Source: Sphaerochaeta pleomorpha str. Grapes (GTDB lineage: Bacteria > Spirochaetota > Spirochaetia > Sphaerochaetales > Sphaerochaetaceae). From it: DNA of 64,000 nucleotides. The DNA is taken from NCBI RefSeq assembly GCF_000236685.1, contig NC_016633.1, positions 806,001 through 870,000 of the forward strand, in the 5' to 3' direction. Positions 102-40,985 of this stretch are shown in pieces. The translations under genes were made by a program, and so were the position numbers. Within the stretch, counting starts at the first letter, position 1. Every line of letters starts with the position of its first letter. The notes under the pieces were generated by a model. It saw only the letters and a list, made by a program, of their open reading frames with translations. It was not told the origin of the DNA and did no database searches.

Positions 102-2093
102 TTATTTGTTTACAGAAAACGGGGAACGAAGGCCCACTGGCTCATACGCGACACCTTTCCCGGTAAAATACTTGCTAAAGAACTCATAATAGTTAAGCCT
201 CAAAGCCTGGATGCCTGAACTCAACCCTTCCAATGCGATAACGAGAAGGTTCCCGAAAATAAATATCAGGATACCCCAGAATCCACCGGCATTCCCTGCC
301 AGTTCCTTGAATGCTGTCATGAGGCTGACATGGGCAATCCCTAATCCGGCTACCCGCATGAAAGAGAGGGTATTCGAGAGATAGCCTATGAAAATCTCAA
401 GGACATTGATAAACCATTCCATAAAAGCATCCATGGTCACTGCAACGATCGAATGTTTTTTGCCACCCTTCTTGACCGAGATACGGTATTCGATAAAACC
501 CGGAAACAGTAACAGTACTATCGGAATGACTATGGCAGGCGTAAGCCAGGAAGCCGAAGGGAACTGCTTGTACCCTGTCGCTACATACCCAAACCCCATG
601 TACAGGCCAACAGCGAAAAGCCAGCCGCCGACAAGACCGTTCTTATCAAGGGTAAGTTTAAGCCAGGCCTTTTTTCTGAAAAGGTTTACCCAGTTGATTA
701 GCAATCCAAGGTAGATGATGACAATTCCGAACTTGACGGTAATCCCAAGGATGGAATAGACATCCTTTATAACCCCACCTGTCGCCTCTCCATTGACCAC
801 ACGGTCGAAATTGAACCAGACGGCAGGAAACAGGGAAAACCCAAAATAGGAACCGAAAAGCACGCCACCGACCATGGAGGCTGAACCTAGGTAGAGCAGA
901 AGGTTGCAGAGATTCCTGCTGATCATACCATCTGCTTTCAAAGGATTCTTCTTATAATCAAAACGTCCGACCAAACCGATGAGAAGCAATACCAAACCTT
1001 GCCCCACATCAGCGAACATCAAGGCAAACATGACCAAATAGGCTACCATGACGAAAATAGTGGGGTTAACCGAACCGTATTCAGGTGTGTTGTAATTATC
1101 TACCATTTTCTGGAAGGGACTGAAGGCTTTCGGGGTATGTATGGAAACTGGGATTTCTTCCCTCGGCATTTCCTCGGCACCTGTCCACTCAATCACACAC
1201 TGCCCTTCGCTGGCCTGGGTTATGGCCTCAGAGACAGAATCACACTGGTCTACAGGTACCCAACCTGAAAAAAGGGTTGTATTTCTTGTATAGGAAAAAT
1301 AAGACCTGATCTGGTTGCAAAGCTCATTGAGCCGAAGGTTGCACCACATCGAATCCAACTGCATTTGCTGCTTCTTGATTATCTCGTCTACCTCAAGCTC
1401 AGTCTGTTTGAGATGGGCAGCTGCCTCTAGGTATTCTTTGTCAATCCGGGAGGAAATCTCTATAAAGGCATGTTTCTGGAGCTCAGCATTGCTGGTCTCC
1501 GTCCATTCGAATTTGTCAAGCAGGGGGGATACCTGGGCACTGTCCCTGCGCAAGGCCAGAGCTATGTAGGAATTGCCTTCCTCTGTCTTATGGAGAAGGC
1601 CTCCTAGGGAAATCAGCTTCTCACTGAGGTCCTCTGGACTGCCATGCCCGACAACACCAACCCTCAAATCAAGATATTCGAGTTTTTCATCCCCAATATA
1701 CCTTTTGAGTTCCTGCAAACCCAATAACTGTTGGTTAAAGTTCTTCTGCTTGTCCTTGAGCGTTGCCAATTGCTTTCCCAAATTGTCAAGCATGTTCCTA
1801 TAGGATTCCAGATCAGGCTTTTCCAGGTTCTTGACATCAAGCATGTCACTGGAAGGAAGAAGGCAATGCCCTTGACGCAACACAGCCTCTACCCGGTGTC
1901 GCATATCCTCGAGGGCGGCCTTGCTTATCGAGATCGGTCTCGAACTGAGCTTCTCCATTTGCCGGGGATCGATTTTCTTGATACTTACAAAATCCATCAC
2001 CCCTAACTCAAGCAAAGCCTTGATAACTGTATCGCTCATCTGCTCCAACACAACTGCGGTAAGCAGTTTCATTGGCCTGGTAAACAGGTTCAT
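102..2093 (-). CDS. ntpI: V-type ATP synthase subunit I (a-subunit homologue)
   Basis: This is the stator membrane subunit that forms the ion half-channels against the K ring. The 663 residues match the family length. Residues 1 to about 330 are soluble with coiled-coil stretches (roughly 90-125 and 230-270), the arm that contacts the peripheral stalks. The rest holds about seven membrane helices, including the family motif MFADVGQG and a helix with LSFMRVAGLGIAH, whose Arg near residue 579 matches the essential channel arginine. A second membrane Arg lies near residue 632. The start overlaps the stop of subunit C by four bases, indicating translational coupling. Whether the pump moves protons or sodium cannot be read from this subunit. 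Confidence 0.95.
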   Translation of the reverse strand: MNLFTRPMKLLTAVVLEQMSDTVIKALLELGVMDFVSIKKIDPRQMEKLSSRPISISKAALEDMRHRVEAVLRQGHCLLPSSDMLDVKNLEKPDLESYRNMLDNLGKQLATLKDKQKNFNQQLLGLQELKRYIGDEKLEYLDLRVGVVGHGSPEDLSEKLISLGGLLHKTEEGNSYIALALRRDSAQVSPLLDKFEWTETSNAELQKHAFIEISSRIDKEYLEAAAHLKQTELEVDEIIKKQQMQLDSMWCNLRLNELCNQIRSYFSYTRNTTLFSGWVPVDQCDSVSEAITQASEGQCVIEWTGAEEMPREEIPVSIHTPKAFSPFQKMVDNYNTPEYGSVNPTIFVMVAYLVMFALMFADVGQGLVLLLIGLVGRFDYKKNPLKADGMISRNLCNLLLYLGSASMVGGVLFGSYFGFSLFPAVWFNFDRVVNGEATGGVIKDVYSILGITVKFGIVIIYLGLLINWVNLFRKKAWLKLTLDKNGLVGGWLFAVGLYMGFGYVATGYKQFPSASWLTPAIVIPIVLLLFPGFIEYRISVKKGGKKHSIVAVTMDAFMEWFINVLEIFIGYLSNTLSFMRVAGLGIAHVSLMTAFKELAGNAGGFWGILIFIFGNLLVIALEGLSSGIQALRLNYYEFFSKYFTGKGVAYEPVGLRSPFSVNK

Positions 2094-35744: not shown

Positions 35745-36617
35745 ATGGCATCCATTCAGAAAAAAATCATTTTCCTTATACAATGTGAGGACCGAAAAGG
35801 AATTTTGGCCGCTACGGCTACCTGGTTCTACAGCCGTTCTTACAACATCCTGCACTGCCAGCAACATACCGACAACAATGAAGGCCGGTATTTCATGCGT
35901 ATAGAACTGGATATGAAAGATTTGCAAACAACCCGAAAGGAACTCGAGGATGATTTCTCGCTGTTCGCCGAAGAGTACAAACTGCAATGGAAATGCCGGT
36001 ACAGCGACTACAAGTCCAGGGTTGCCATAATGGTCAGCAAAACGAGCCATTGTCTCTATGATTTGATCGCTCGCAACAATGAAGGCGATCTCAACTGCGA
36101 GATTTCCCTTATCATCTCAAACCATCCGGACCTTGAACTCATTGCCAACCAGTTCAGGATTCCGTTCTATTACCTGCCGATAACCCCCGAGACCAAGCAA
36201 AGCCAGGAAGAGAAAGTCCGTTCCCTTCTTACCCGTTTTGATATCGATTTGGTGGTGCTTGCCAGGTACATGCAGATTCTTTCCTCCGATTTCACCAGGG
36301 CCTGGCAGGGAAAAATAATCAATATCCACCATGGGTTCCTACCTGCCTTCCAAGGGGCGAATCCGTATCTGAAAGCATACCAGAGGGGGGTCAAGATGAT
36401 CGGGGCTACTGCCCACTATGCCAGCGAAGACCTCGACCAGGGACCAATCATCGAGCAGGACGTAGTACGCGTAAATCATGAGTTGACCCCCAACGGCCTG
36501 AGGGATGTAGGAAAAGATGTTGAGCGAAGGGTACTTGCACGTGCAGTGCAGGCCCATCTGGAAAGCAGGATCATAATCTGGAAAAACAGAACCATCGTTT
36601 TCGACGTCGAAGGCTAG
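35745..36617 (+). CDS. purU: Formyltetrahydrofolate deformylase
   Basis: 290 residues: an ACT domain (about 8-90) and a formyl-transfer domain (about 92-285). Motifs NIHHGFLPAFQGANPY and GATAHYASEDLDQGPIIEQD include the catalytic His and Asp. The usual HHSFLPAF is here HHGFLPAF. It releases formate from 10-formyl-THF, serving purine synthesis and one-carbon balance. Ends with a strong terminator. Confidence 0.93.
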   Translation: MASIQKKIIFLIQCEDRKGILAATATWFYSRSYNILHCQQHTDNNEGRYFMRIELDMKDLQTTRKELEDDFSLFAEEYKLQWKCRYSDYKSRVAIMVSKTSHCLYDLIARNNEGDLNCEISLIISNHPDLELIANQFRIPFYYLPITPETKQSQEEKVRSLLTRFDIDLVVLARYMQILSSDFTRAWQGKIINIHHGFLPAFQGANPYLKAYQRGVKMIGATAHYASEDLDQGPIIEQDVVRVNHELTPNGLRDVGKDVERRVLARAVQAHLESRIIIWKNRTIVFDVEG

Positions 36618-36634
36618 TGCTACCAGATACGCTT

Positions 36635-36672
36635 AAAAAAGCCATTGCCGGTCAGGCGATGGCTCTTTTTTG
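36635..36672 (+). terminator. Intrinsic terminator after purU
   Basis: GCCATTGCC and GGCGATGGC with a five-base loop, flanked by an A tract and a six-base T tract. The A tract could support action on the minus strand as well, but the opposing amt gene ends 160 bases away. Confidence 0.85.
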
Positions 36673-36828
36673 TTTTCCCGCAATGTCTTTTCATTAGGTT
36701 TCACCATGTTGCTTCGCATCCTTCCCTTGCTTAAAGAACGTAAGGCCGTGCCGGAAATTATTTTTACCGTAAGGAAAAGACCCCTTTCGGGGCCTTTTCA
36801 CAGAACAGCAGTTTGCTTTCAACCTTGC

Positions 36829-38559
36829 CTATTCGGCAACAACTTCATCTTGCAGGGCGTCATAGCCTTCCTCTCCGGTTCTGACCTTGATAACATTTTC
36901 GACATCGAAAACAAAGATTTTCCCATCTCCTATATGTCCTGTGTAGAGAGCTTTCTTGGCTGCCTCTATTACAGTACGTACAGGGACCTTGCTTACGACT
37001 GTCTCAACCTGCATCTTGGGAAGCAACGTCATATCGACTGGAACACCACGGTAATACTCGCTACGTCCTTTCTGCATCCCGCAGCCCATTACATGGGTTA
37101 CGGTAATACCGGTAACACCGATCTCGTTCAGTGCTTTCTTCAAGTCGGTAAACTTACTCTGGCGGCTGACAATGACGATCTTTGTCATTTTCACCCCACC
37201 CTTTTTGGCTGCACCGGTACCGGTGGAGACTGTTTTGACCGGAACGGCCTGCTCAACGGGGGTTGCCCCGGTTACCTGAGGGACGACCAAAGCAGAACTT
37301 TCTTCTGCTACAAACCCATTTACCACTGGCATGAAGTCCGCATAGGAAGAAACAAGTCCGTGCTCCTCGATATCCAAGCCTGCAATCTCCTCTGCGGCAG
37401 TGACACGCAGGCCAACAGTTTTTTTGATTAGGTAGAACACAATGGTAATGGTAACCGATACCCACAGGATTACTGCCCCTACGCCAATAGCCTGGACAGT
37501 AAGCAACGAGAGCCCGCCACCGTAGAATAAGCCACCGTCAACGGCAAAGAGACCGGTGAGTAAGGTTCCAAGGGCTCCACAGACGCCGTGAACGGAAATA
37601 GCCCCGACAGGATCATCGATTTTCAGTACTTTCTCAAAGAATTCAACGGAGAAGACGACTACCACCCCGGCGATGATTCCGATAATTGCCGCCCCTGCGG
37701 GAGAGACTGCATCACAACCGGCTGTGATGGCAACAAGCCCTGCCAACGAACCGTTGAGTGTCATCGAGACATCGGGTTTCTTATAGCGGAACCAGGTCAA
37801 TATCATAGTGGCTATTGAGGCGAAGGCCGCGGCAAGGTTCGTTGTCACGAAGATTTTTGAAGCTGAAAGGATTGTGTCATCCCCTGTCATGGAGACTGTA
37901 GAGCCACCGTTGAACCCGAACCAGCAGAACCAAAGGATGAACACACCCAAGGCGCCTAGCGTCAGGCTGTGGCCGGGAATGGCACGGGGTTTTCCGTCAG
38001 GACCGAATTTTCCGATACGAGGCCCGAGGAATTTTGCCCCGATCAAAGCAGCTACGCCACCTACCATATGCACTGCAGTAGATCCTGCAAAGTCATGGAA
38101 CCCAAGGTTGGACAACCAGCCGCCACCCCATATCCAGTGACCGCTGATGGGATAGATCAAAGCGCTGATAATTACGCTATAGATACAGTAGGAAATGAAT
38201 TTCGTTCTTTCAGCCATTGCTCCGCTGACAATCGTTGCCGCAGTTGCACAGAACACTGTCTGGAAAATCAAAAAGGCAAAGGTTGGGTAGGAACCACTGT
38301 AGTCTCCCTGGACCATGAAATCGGGAACCCCGATAAACGGCAAGGAAATCCCCTTGGAGGTAAGGCCAAACATCAAGCCAAAACCCAAGAGCCAGAAGGC
38401 TGCGGTTCCCAGGCTGAAATCCATAAGGTTCTTCATAATGATGTTTCCGGCATTCTTTGCACGGGTGAACCCTGTTTCTACCATCGCGAAGCCAGCTTGC
38501 ATGAAGAACACCAGCACGGCACCAAGCAGGACCCAAATCGTGTCTACGGATGAATACAT
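36829..38559 (-). CDS. Ammonium transporter Amt fused to a P-II regulator domain
   Basis: 576 residues from the ATG at 38559 (GGGAGGGAG upstream). Residues 1 to about 410 form an 11-helix Amt channel, with GFAMVETGFTRAKN, AVHMVGG and SVHGVCG holding the twin pore His. After a linker, residues from 458 form a complete P-II (GlnB/GlnK) domain with the end signature TGHIGDGKIFV and a modified T-loop (GRSEYYRG). The signal protein that normally blocks Amt is thus tethered to it. An internal ATG at the start of the P-II part (MTKIVIVS) could give a free P-II if a ribosome binding site exists. The leader has two hairpins. Confidence 0.95.
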   Translation of the reverse strand: MYSSVDTIWVLLGAVLVFFMQAGFAMVETGFTRAKNAGNIIMKNLMDFSLGTAAFWLLGFGLMFGLTSKGISLPFIGVPDFMVQGDYSGSYPTFAFLIFQTVFCATAATIVSGAMAERTKFISYCIYSVIISALIYPISGHWIWGGGWLSNLGFHDFAGSTAVHMVGGVAALIGAKFLGPRIGKFGPDGKPRAIPGHSLTLGALGVFILWFCWFGFNGGSTVSMTGDDTILSASKIFVTTNLAAAFASIATMILTWFRYKKPDVSMTLNGSLAGLVAITAGCDAVSPAGAAIIGIIAGVVVVFSVEFFEKVLKIDDPVGAISVHGVCGALGTLLTGLFAVDGGLFYGGGLSLLTVQAIGVGAVILWVSVTITIVFYLIKKTVGLRVTAAEEIAGLDIEEHGLVSSYADFMPVVNGFVAEESSALVVPQVTGATPVEQAVPVKTVSTGTGAAKKGGVKMTKIVIVSRQSKFTDLKKALNEIGVTGITVTHVMGCGMQKGRSEYYRGVPVDMTLLPKMQVETVVSKVPVRTVIEAAKKALYTGHIGDGKIFVFDVENVIKVRTGEEGYDALQDEVVAE

Positions 38560-38589
38560 ATTTCTCCCTCCCAGGTGAAAAAATGCGAA

Positions 38590-38628
38590 AAGGCGCACGG
38601 ATGGGGAATACCCAACACCGCACGCCTT
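38590..38628 (-). promoter_or_regulatory. Second leader hairpin of the amt gene
   Basis: AAGGCG-TG-CGG and CCG-TG-CGCCTT pair around a 2x2 internal loop on the minus strand, followed by TTTTCGCATTTTTT and then the ribosome binding site. It might act as a terminator or sequester the start region. Confidence 0.4.
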
Positions 38629-38653
38629 CGTACGCCAAGCCATACAAGCTTGG

Positions 38654-38696
38654 AAAAACAACAAAGGCGATGTGAACAGCAGTCCACATCGCCTTT
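38654..38696 (-). terminator. Terminator-like hairpin in the amt leader (attenuator candidate)
   Basis: A perfect 12-base stem, AAAGGCGATGTG with CACATCGCCTTT (plus strand 38663-38674 and 38685-38696), is followed on the minus strand by GTTGTTTTT. It lies between the promoter and the coding region, about 95 bases before the ATG, so it would stop transcription early unless relieved. Confidence 0.6.
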
Positions 38697-38709
38697 GACG
38701 TATGCACAG

Positions 38710-38739
38710 TTTATATCTGCAAACCGGGCATTTTGTCAA
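38710..38739 (-). promoter_or_regulatory. Promoter of the amt-PII gene
   Basis: Minus-strand TTGACA (38739-38734), 18-base spacer, TATAAA (38715-38710). The leader from here to the ATG is about 145 bases. Confidence 0.65.
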
Positions 38740-38847
38740 TCAGAAAAAACAAAATATGCAAAAATATGCAGAATTCATACACAAGAATTTTTCAAGTCAT
38801 TTCATATTAATAGTTTAATACATCTATAAAAATACAAAACCTGTTCC

Positions 38848-39873
38848 TTACGCAAAACATGCTATCTGATTCTTTCCCAAGATCTTTGCCTTATAGAGAT
38901 TCCTGTCCCCATGGACAATATACTCCGTAAGATTTTCCCCTTGGTATTCGCAGATGCCTACACTCATTGACACATGGTTGTTTTCCCCGACAGGAACCTG
39001 TCTGACCAGGGCCAGGATTTTCTCAAATAGAGTACAGGCAAGTGCAATATCGGCATTCTTGAGGATTACCAAAAATTCATCTCCCCCATATCTTCCTACC
39101 GTATCGCAGTCCCTTGTATTCTCAACAAGTATCCTGGCTATCGAGACAAGGACGCTGTCGCCAGCAAGATGCCCATAGATATCGTTTATGCTCTTGAAAT
39201 CATCAAGGTCAAGGAGTGCGATGGAAAGAGGCGTTCCCAGCTCTTGGGATTCTATCCGTTCCACATCCAATTGCTCGAACAGGGCCCTATGATTCACTAA
39301 ACCGGTCAAACCGTCTGTCTTGGACAACTTCTCCAACATCCGGTTCGACGATTCCAAAGATTCCAGCATTTTTTTCTTTTCGGTAATGTCAAAGACAATC
39401 CCTGCAAGGAACAAGGGTTTGCCCGACTCTTCATACCGGGTTATTTTCCCCCGGTCATACTACCATTTATAGGACCCATCCTTTGCCTGTATCCTATATT
39501 CGACTTCATAGACAGGACTGGTCCCTTTCAAATGGTCAATCATCGACTGCATTACCTTGTGGTAATCGTCAGGGTGCAGTTTATCGGTAAAAAAAGAAAA
39601 CCCGACATCCTTGGGCAATTCTTCCAGCGAATAGCCAAGGGTGGTTGCCTTAAGTGGGTTGAAAGTAACCGTATCGGTCTTTATGTTCCAATACCAGGTA
39701 CCGAGGTTTCCGCTCCAGGCGTAATCGAGTCTGGTCTCCTGTTCCCTTTCCAAGAGAAGCTGGGAGACCAATAGCTGTTTTTCCTCAAGCTTGCCGATAA
39801 GCTCTTCCTTAGTGAGCAGGCTATAATCCAGGTTCACACTCCAGACAGTTTTTACCTCTTCTCCAAGATTCAA
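38848..39873 (-). pseudogene. PAS-GGDEF diguanylate cyclase interrupted by an in-frame TAG
   Basis: A single reading frame of 342 codons holds a helical lead (1-50), a PAS domain (about 50-165) and a GGDEF domain with RYGGDEF, IALLDLDDFKSIND and DGLTGLVNH. Codon 138 is TAG (39462-39460), exactly inside the PAS domain between GSYKW and YDRGKITRYEESG. Both sides stay in phase and are well conserved, and a single base change would restore Trp or Tyr. Either a recent nonsense mutation or a sequencing error; the shorter downstream frame (38848-39414) would need a TTG restart. The start overlaps the aminopeptidase stop by four bases. Confidence 0.8.
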
Positions 39874-40985
39874 TTTCCGTCAGTAAAATTCAGGCACTGC
39901 AGTTGCGGATGGACAAACACCCCGTCTTTTCTAACAAGCTCATTGTCGAACCACATCTCCCCTCCGCCATACTCCTTCCTCTGTATCTGCACCAGATCCC
40001 AATGCACCGATGATTTGTTGCCGTTGTCGCAGTCATCATAGGCATTGCCTGGAGTAAAATGGATCGAGCCGGAGATCTTCTCGTCAAAGAGTGTGTTATC
40101 CATCGGATGGAGTACTTGTGGATTGCATCCCAGGGCGAACTCACCGATATACCTGGCACCCTCATCCAAATCGAGGACTTGGTTGAGAAGCACATCGTCA
40201 TCACTATGGGCCTCTATGATTTTTCCGTCCTTGAACTGGAAGGAAATGTCACTGAAACAATGCCCATGATAGGTGCTGTTACAGTTGTACCGGATCTTTC
40301 CGTTAACTGAATCCTTTATAGGGCAGGAATAAATCTCACCGTCGGGTATGTTCATCTTACCGGCACAGGGAATGAACCCCATGCCTTTGACGGAGAACGT
40401 AAGGTCGGTACCCGGGGCCACAATATGGACTTTATCGACAGAATCGAGATAGGTCTTTGCCTTTTCCATGGCCTCTGCCATCTTCTTATAGTCGACATCA
40501 CAACAGACCCGATAGAAATATTCTTCAAATTCCACCGTGCCCTGGGAGGCCTGCATTGCCATCGTCTCGGTAGGATAGCGCAAAACCACCCATCTTGTAT
40601 GGGGGAGCCTGGTTTTCATATGCACCGGCGTATTGTAATAGGTACTTACCAGGTTGGCTTTCTCACCCACGGTTGCCAATTCACGGACATTGGCAATGCC
40701 GCGGATCCCGATAAAGGCATCCATCTTTTTCATCCGGTAGGTATCGACCCCGGCCCAGACATCCAGCGATTCCTTGGTAGCTCCCTCGGTCATGGCCCGC
40801 TCGAGCCTCTGGCTCCAGACGTTCACCACAGGATAGCCACCTGCTGCATAGACTTCCCGGATCAAGGCCTCTGCCATGCTAACAGGGACATCGACTGCAT
40901 TTATAAGGCAGGATTCGCCTTTCTTCAGATCCACTGAATACGTTACCAGAAGCCTGGCTAGTTTTTGTTCTCTTTGATCGGACAT
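39870..40985 (-). CDS. M29-family aminopeptidase (AmpS/PepS-type)
   Basis: 371 residues of peptidase family M29. Metal ligands are in NIPDGEIYSCP (Glu), IGEFALG (Glu), GSIHFTPGNAY (His) and SSVHWDLV (His, Asp). It is a cytosolic metallo-aminopeptidase with broad specificity. Upstream AAGGAAG precedes the ATG. The broken cyclase gene is coupled to its stop. Confidence 0.92.
   Translation of the reverse strand: MSDQREQKLARLLVTYSVDLKKGESCLINAVDVPVSMAEALIREVYAAGGYPVVNVWSQRLERAMTEGATKESLDVWAGVDTYRMKKMDAFIGIRGIANVRELATVGEKANLVSTYYNTPVHMKTRLPHTRWVVLRYPTETMAMQASQGTVEFEEYFYRVCCDVDYKKMAEAMEKAKTYLDSVDKVHIVAPGTDLTFSVKGMGFIPCAGKMNIPDGEIYSCPIKDSVNGKIRYNCNSTYHGHCFSDISFQFKDGKIIEAHSDDDVLLNQVLDLDEGARYIGEFALGCNPQVLHPMDNTLFDEKISGSIHFTPGNAYDDCDNGNKSSVHWDLVQIQRKEYGGGEMWFDNELVRKDGVFVHPQLQCLNFTDGN

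Follow-up and report, generated by a model that had tools for sequence, protein, structure and literature searches.

A tandem hexaloop leader upstream of amt in Sphaerochaeta pleomorpha is best explained as a form of ANTAR control within a nitrogen regulon

Between the promoter and the start codon of the amt gene of Sphaerochaeta pleomorpha str. Grapes lie two successive terminator-like hairpins. We analyzed this leader within a stretch of 64,000 nucleotides (contig NC_016633.1, positions 806,001 to 870,000; hereafter the window), and feature positions are those of the window unless a genome position or a locus label is given. A preliminary description, made from the sequence alone, had proposed that transcription of amt is attenuated through a nitrogen signal, and had set ANTAR control aside in favor of a possibly new control type. 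The leader and its gene comprise the following features:

38710..38739, minus strand: promoter, with -35 TTGACA at 38739-38734, -10 TATAAA at 38715-38710 and a spacer of 18
38685..38702, minus strand: SL1, a 6-bp hairpin with the hexaloop AAAGGC (A1, G4), beginning approximately at the predicted transcription start
38662..38697, minus strand: T1, an intrinsic terminator hairpin of 16 pairs with the tail TTGTTTTTCC
38619..38634, minus strand: SL2, a 5-bp hairpin with the hexaloop GAAGGC (G4 present, A1 replaced by G)
38589..38629, minus strand: T2, a second terminator-like hairpin of 12 + 4 pairs with an internal loop
38565..38572, minus strand: ribosome binding site GGAGGGAG, preceding the ATG at 38559
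36832..38559, minus strand: amt, encoding a 576-aa ammonium transporter that ends in a PII domain

The promoter matches 11 of the 12 hexamer positions (10.5 once the spacer penalty is applied), in agreement with the consensus-like promoter first described; it went unlisted in our fixed promoter scan, which accepted a -10 element only if its sixth base was T. The second hairpin with its internal loop, the T tracts that follow it (interrupted ones) and the ribosome binding site were likewise located, and T1 does carry a T-rich tail, but its stem is longer than the 12 bases originally given, consisting of 13 perfect pairs and three more, including one G-U. By the published definition, an ANTAR target has a hexaloop in which the first base is A and the fourth is G (PMC3369931). 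The terminal loop of T1, CUGCUG, indeed does not match this pattern, but it is not the loop of the ANTAR-type hairpin: the A1/G4 hexaloops sit in alternative hairpins of the terminator 5' arms, and the earlier dismissal of ANTAR control was therefore wrong. The own loops of T1 and T2 were discarded as an ANTAR criterion, since they vary freely among relatives. The 5' arm of T1 holds the loop and the 3' strand of SL1 (UACGUC[AAAGGC]GAUGUG), hence T1 and SL1 are mutually exclusive; the 5' arm of T2 includes the loop and the 3' strand of SL2 (CGUAC[GAAGGC]GUGCG), which in relatives has A at loop position 1. SL1 and SL2 are spaced by 51 nt. The whole leader folds at -70.8 kcal/mol compared with -43.5 +- 3.8 in 200 shuffles (z = -7.25; 0/200 as low), window positions 36500-40000 contain eight terminator-like sites against 3.5 +- 2.1 expected, and a covariance-model search of the window matched the T2 unit at 38583-38635 (20.3 bits). 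Rfam at the gathering score returned tRNAs alone within the window and no match for the amt leader, for which only sub-threshold matches (E 0.045-0.75) were obtained, and no large aptamer-like fold was found in the folded leader. The encoded protein carries PF00909 at residues 9-402 and PF00543 at residues 458-563.

The amt protein was searched in 139 Sphaerochaetaceae genomes, yielding 49 of 58 amt places and 48 readable leaders (L027 is truncated). Both units were present in 38 of these 48, SL2 without SL1 in one (L035) and neither unit in nine (L026 and L043-L050). For SL1 (36 hairpins, 22 distinct) as for SL2 (37 hairpins, 26 distinct), neither the number of cells changed on both sides nor the covariation score was equaled in any of 500 shuffles or any slid register; for SL1 alone, two coarser measures did not rise above shuffles (both-side-changed pairs, 87/500 as high; further pair types, 112/500). 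When the SL hairpins of amt, glt and glnN were pooled (81 in total, 74 distinct), paired cells made up 90.0%, and for the terminator fold (46 units) 94.8%, percentages that are biased towards structure since the leader sets were partly collected by a scanner demanding an A..G loop and at least three pairs. The homologous leaders dropped by this scanner were few (L026 and SL1 of L035 for amt; L105 and L114 for glnN). The pooled SL hairpins showed 127 double-sided changes, where shuffles gave 43.7 +- 6.0 (0/500), and a covariation score of 0.809 against at most 0.227 in slid registers, and the terminator fold 137 double changes against 39.6 +- 5.3. In the same scanner-influenced sets, A1 and G4 occurred together in 34/35 amt SL1, 35/36 amt SL2, 30/30 glt and 28/28 glnN loops, 127 of the 129 listed hairpins of the family thus having both. 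Hence, the SL and terminator folds both covary, which indicates that one strand has been selected for two alternative partners, as a switch requires; the preliminary description had named a lack of structural conservation among relatives as a ground for its own refutation, and both folds proved to be conserved. Nine of the 35 amt SL1 stems have just three uninterrupted pairs, and several close relatives have a weak T1 tail, such as the TCTTCGTTCTGC of L012. Two other structures were considered and rejected: the middle hairpin CCAAGC..GCUUGG as an ANTAR hairpin, which has no A..G hexaloop and by eye is missing in L009, L021, L022 and L024, and a pairing of the T1 3' arm with the T2 5' arm as an anti-terminator, which by eye is possible in the window, the units of L022 sharing little matching sequence. 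Separately, the amt genes of four genomes (G116, G080, G081 and G007; L004, L010, L020 and L024) are reported with one in-frame stop across the Amt-PII match, which could reflect split genes or errors in the draft sequences.

Outside the window, the same unit precedes other nitrogen genes of the S. pleomorpha genome. At genome positions 1976372-1976611, the divergent glnN (GSIII) and glt-glnA-ANTAR operons are each headed by one unit (L054:4418, minus strand, and L054:4555, plus strand), single units lie before asnB at 1948124-1948171 (L120, about 1500-1548, minus strand) and at 227909-227957 (L123, about 1502-1550, plus strand), the latter 5' of genes for a family-3 solute-binding protein and a permease, i.e., an amino-acid ABC transporter. 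The asnB unit is flanked by an aminotransferase-like gene and by asnB itself, apparently inside an operon and without its own promoter. A whole-genome covariance-model search found the units of glnN, amt, asnB and the family-3 gene and missed those of glt and the second amt unit; its matches L122, L124 and L125 were rejected as terminators without a hexaloop hairpin, and a further match as T1 read on the opposite strand. The glt, glnN, asnB and ABC transporter units all appear in a degenerate pattern search of the genome, which overall performed barely better than its reversed control (25 + 26 vs. 22 + 21 matches). In relatives, the hairpin was present in 30/30 fetched glt leaders and 28/30 glnN leaders; in L060, L072-L075 and L079 the terminator was left unscored by the scanner.

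A similar distribution was seen in 80 ANTAR-family loci, mostly from Clostridia, where 37 of 48 units fall in the 4.6% of sequence located just before nitrogen genes, that is, within 420 nt upstream of glt, glnN, amt, asnB or glnA (P 5e-40), and where A..G loops account for 37/42 hexaloops before nitrogen genes compared with 11/36 elsewhere. In these loci, a unit precedes 13 of 26 glt1, 15 of 27 glnN and six of nine amt starts. Those six amt leaders, all from other genomes, have one unit each, hence the tandem form seems confined to Sphaerochaetaceae. A second case of doubling was observed in G006, where tandem units precede a glnN-amt operon (L229 reverse strand, loops at 1225 and 1289). An ANTAR gene was detected in 36 of the 39 genomes that have an amt unit vs. 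four of the nine that lack one (Fisher P 0.003). In three of those four (G135, G004 and G006), amt lies behind glnN and the unit heads the operon; in the fourth, G130, no unit was seen on that strand. Units were present and the ANTAR gene was not found in G082, G007 and G099; the glt gene is cut or near a contig end in G007 and G099, and G082 (95% complete, 10 contigs), also without glt1, stays an exception. The proposal that amt is attenuated through a nitrogen signal is thus well supported, given that the structure covaries, the regulon consists of nitrogen genes and an ANTAR gene from a nitrogen operon co-occurs with the units.

The position of the units relative to promoters bears on the type of target they represent. 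For amt SL1, a promoter scoring at least 8.5/12 ends 6-11 nt 5' of the stem in 32/34 distinct upstream regions (median 7), 16% of shuffles containing any promoter of this score; a promoter was found within 2-18 nt of the glnN unit in 23/25 (median 7), and before the glt unit in 19/25 (median 14) and the units of other genomes in 26/33 (median 10). For SL2, a comparable promoter was found in 0/33. Hence, SL1 begins approximately at the predicted transcription start, which would leave no space for an upstream recruitment hairpin. Moreover, an upstream hexaloop hairpin is not conserved among ANTAR-locus units (candidates in 4/37 vs. 9.4% of shuffles), and a second hexaloop in the glnN leader of S. 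pleomorpha, CCCGAU[ACAGAA]AUCGGG, was rejected because it is absent as a conserved feature in relatives. EutV antitermination needs two close hairpins (PMC3369931; PMC8934654), with P1-P2 linkers of 5-12 nt in eut leaders and 2-25 nt in actinobacteria (PMC3369931), and activity is abolished by an eut linker of 14 nt (PMC3369931) or one extended by 20 nt (PMC8934654). The amt leader has the short stem, the hexaloop, G4 and usually A1 of the single-hexaloop definition (PMC8934654), overlaps and excludes an intrinsic terminator, and shows compensatory stem changes; it does not conform to the dual-hairpin model (PMC3369931), having a linker of 51 nt and no room upstream of SL1. Judged from these sequence features, the type that would fit it best is an ANTAR target by the single-hexaloop definition, departing from the dual-hairpin form.

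The alternative that survives best, although we regard it as unlikely, is that SL1 and SL2 together form a canonical P1-P2 dual-hairpin target, in which T2 would do the actual terminating, and T1 would be accidental or act as a brake on P1. Two hexaloop hairpins are indeed present, the second overlapping a terminator immediately ahead of the gene, an arrangement shared with eut leaders (PMC3369931), and two glt leaders of genus g13 (L079 and L083) bear an extra, P1-like hexaloop hairpin upstream, farther off than in eut leaders. However, the SL1-SL2 linker spans 23-96 nt over 35 leaders, above the eut range, T1 covaries as a terminator, and glt, glnN and the unit-bearing amt leaders in ANTAR loci of other genomes (6/6) carry just one unit.

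The S. pleomorpha genome encodes one ANTAR protein (a single PF03861 match, 63.8 bits vs. a cut-off of 27.3), whose gene lies 14 nt behind glnA in the operon starting with the glutamate synthase genes. Its structural model (pLDDT 95.1) has the EutV-type combination of a receiver and an ANTAR domain fold, finds its best PDB match in RNA-bound EutV (6ww6, TM 0.80) and also matches AmiR/AmiC (1qo0). The receiver scores 25.1 bits against PF00072, below the cut-off of 30.2, and in phmmer alignments the phospho-accepting Asp is missing, Asn standing at the position aligned to the Asp of Rv1626; in the family alignment this position is Asn in 15/20 and Asp in 5/20 proteins. Since Asn replaces the phospho-Asp, the signal to the ANTAR protein is probably other than phosphorylation, and our guess would be an interaction with glutamine synthetase or PII. 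With EutV residue numbers matched by manual counting, the position of Tyr164, which stacks on G4 in EutV (PMC8934654), is an invariant His (20/20), and that of Met172 an invariant Met. The subfamily with a degenerate receiver and the invariant His (L002:1105-1671) is mostly clostridial yet occurs in some spirochaetes, hence horizontal transfer is possible.

It seems quite improbable that the attenuator serves another RNA-binding protein or a small-molecule riboswitch, with the ANTAR gene being a neighbor without a role. Such a reading would account for the units of G082, where the ANTAR gene was not detected, and ANTAR binding to the leader is itself a prediction; it is opposed by the A1/G4 hexaloops with covarying stems, by the location of the ANTAR gene inside a regulated operon, by the enrichment of units before nitrogen genes in ANTAR-bearing loci, and by the lack of an Rfam family at the gathering score and of a large aptamer-like fold. 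Finally, the notion that T1 and T2 are plain terminators or 5' stability hairpins, and the SL folds a by-product of the A-tract before a terminator, is already strongly disfavored and hardly credible, for although AAAGGC..GCCTTT resembles ordinary terminators and A..G occurs in 11/36 terminator-linked hexaloops elsewhere, the SL 5' strand lies outside the terminator yet covaries, and SL1 keeps a set distance of 6-11 nt from the -10 element in nearly all amt leaders, with no such promoter at SL2.

We therefore consider it very likely that amt is attenuated under ANTAR control, by a leader in which two hexaloop/terminator switches follow each other. By default, T1 would fold and halt RNA polymerase about 45-50 nt past the start, and a polymerase escaping T1 would then encounter T2. 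Under nitrogen shortage, the ANTAR protein encoded behind glnA would bind the hexaloop of SL1 when the initial ~20 nt leave the polymerase and, by holding the 5' arm, block T1; a repetition of this event at SL2/T2 would allow transcription to reach amt. We infer the binding, the direction of control and the tighter switching that two units in series may provide. The calculated energies are -4.0 kcal/mol for SL1 and -26.5 for T1, and in folding of the growing transcript the SL1 strands are used at 18-32 nt, the early minimum-energy fold sometimes differing from the exact SL1 hexaloop, before T1 wins from about 36-40 nt. Hence, the protein would have to hold SL1 until the polymerase clears the T tract. 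In the SL2 of the window, G1 can pair with C6, giving a 6-bp stem with an AAGG tetraloop. In the EutV complex A1 makes no specific contact, and Met172 is thought to exclude tetraloops (PMC8934654). Taken together, the tetraloop option and the role of Met172 suggest that this SL2 may bind weakly and may be a poor ANTAR binder. On a broader scale, we cautiously lean towards the view that an ANTAR protein with a non-phosphorylated pseudo-receiver and His in place of the G4-stacking Tyr runs a large clostridial and Sphaerochaetaceae nitrogen regulon by single-hexaloop antitermination, binding one hairpin made of the initial ~20 nt of the RNA with no recruitment hairpin, the unit being doubled at amt so that the polymerase is rescued twice.

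Among the known systems, EutV/eut of Enterococcus faecalis shares the A1/G4 hexaloop overlapping the terminator 5' arm (PMC3369931; PMC8934654) and a response regulator of the same fold (6ww6). EutV, however, requires the recruitment hairpin P1 located 5-12 nt upstream of P2, whereas the amt units each have a single hexaloop, with SL1 at the transcript 5' end and SL2, which has a separate terminator, 23-96 nt farther downstream; the proteins differ as well, the present one lacking the phospho-Asp and bearing His at the position of the G4-stacking Tyr164 in all 20 aligned proteins. The ANTAR targets at glutamate synthase of Desulfotomaculum reducens and nitrogenase of Pelobacter carbinolicus are alike in controlling nitrogen assimilation, but were identified by the dual-hairpin model, unlike the single units described here (PMC3369931); in the main text of that paper, the strings 'spiroch', 'amt' and 'glnA' are absent. 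AmiR of Pseudomonas aeruginosa, an ANTAR protein with a receiver-like domain similar to ours by structural match (1qo0), is controlled by its partner AmiC (PMC3369931). AmiR serves an amidase operon, while the ANTAR gene studied here adjoins glnA. The clostridial GlnR of C. saccharobutylicum is reportedly an ANTAR protein encoded behind glnA, with a proposed role in nitrogen antitermination, and would resemble the present gene in position and proposed role.

The units described here bear on how ANTAR proteins prevent termination. NasR binds a single hairpin weakly, at about 12 uM (PMC7496416), one dimer of RNA-bound EutV grips one hexaloop, yet EutV needs two (PMC8934654), and the authors of that structure raise the importance of single-hexaloop motifs as a question (PMC8934654). 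It becomes directly testable with the dozens of single-hexaloop switches that occur naturally, have a fixed geometry and include some from cultured anaerobes, and with the natural form that places two in series. If the broader reading is true, the dual-hairpin requirement is not general, and the transcript 5' end can stand in for P1. It would also define a concrete system of nitrogen control in clostridia and Sphaerochaetaceae; a search of the open-licence PMC literature returned none of this form, nor any description of this leader or of nitrogen genes antiterminated through a single hexaloop. The best explanation of the leader is a previously undescribed form of ANTAR control, which is part of a widespread nitrogen regulon. 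Just 5' of the amt promoter, at 38848-39873 on the minus strand of the window, we also noted GGDEF-like and PAS-like reading frames, by eye those of a diguanylate cyclase.
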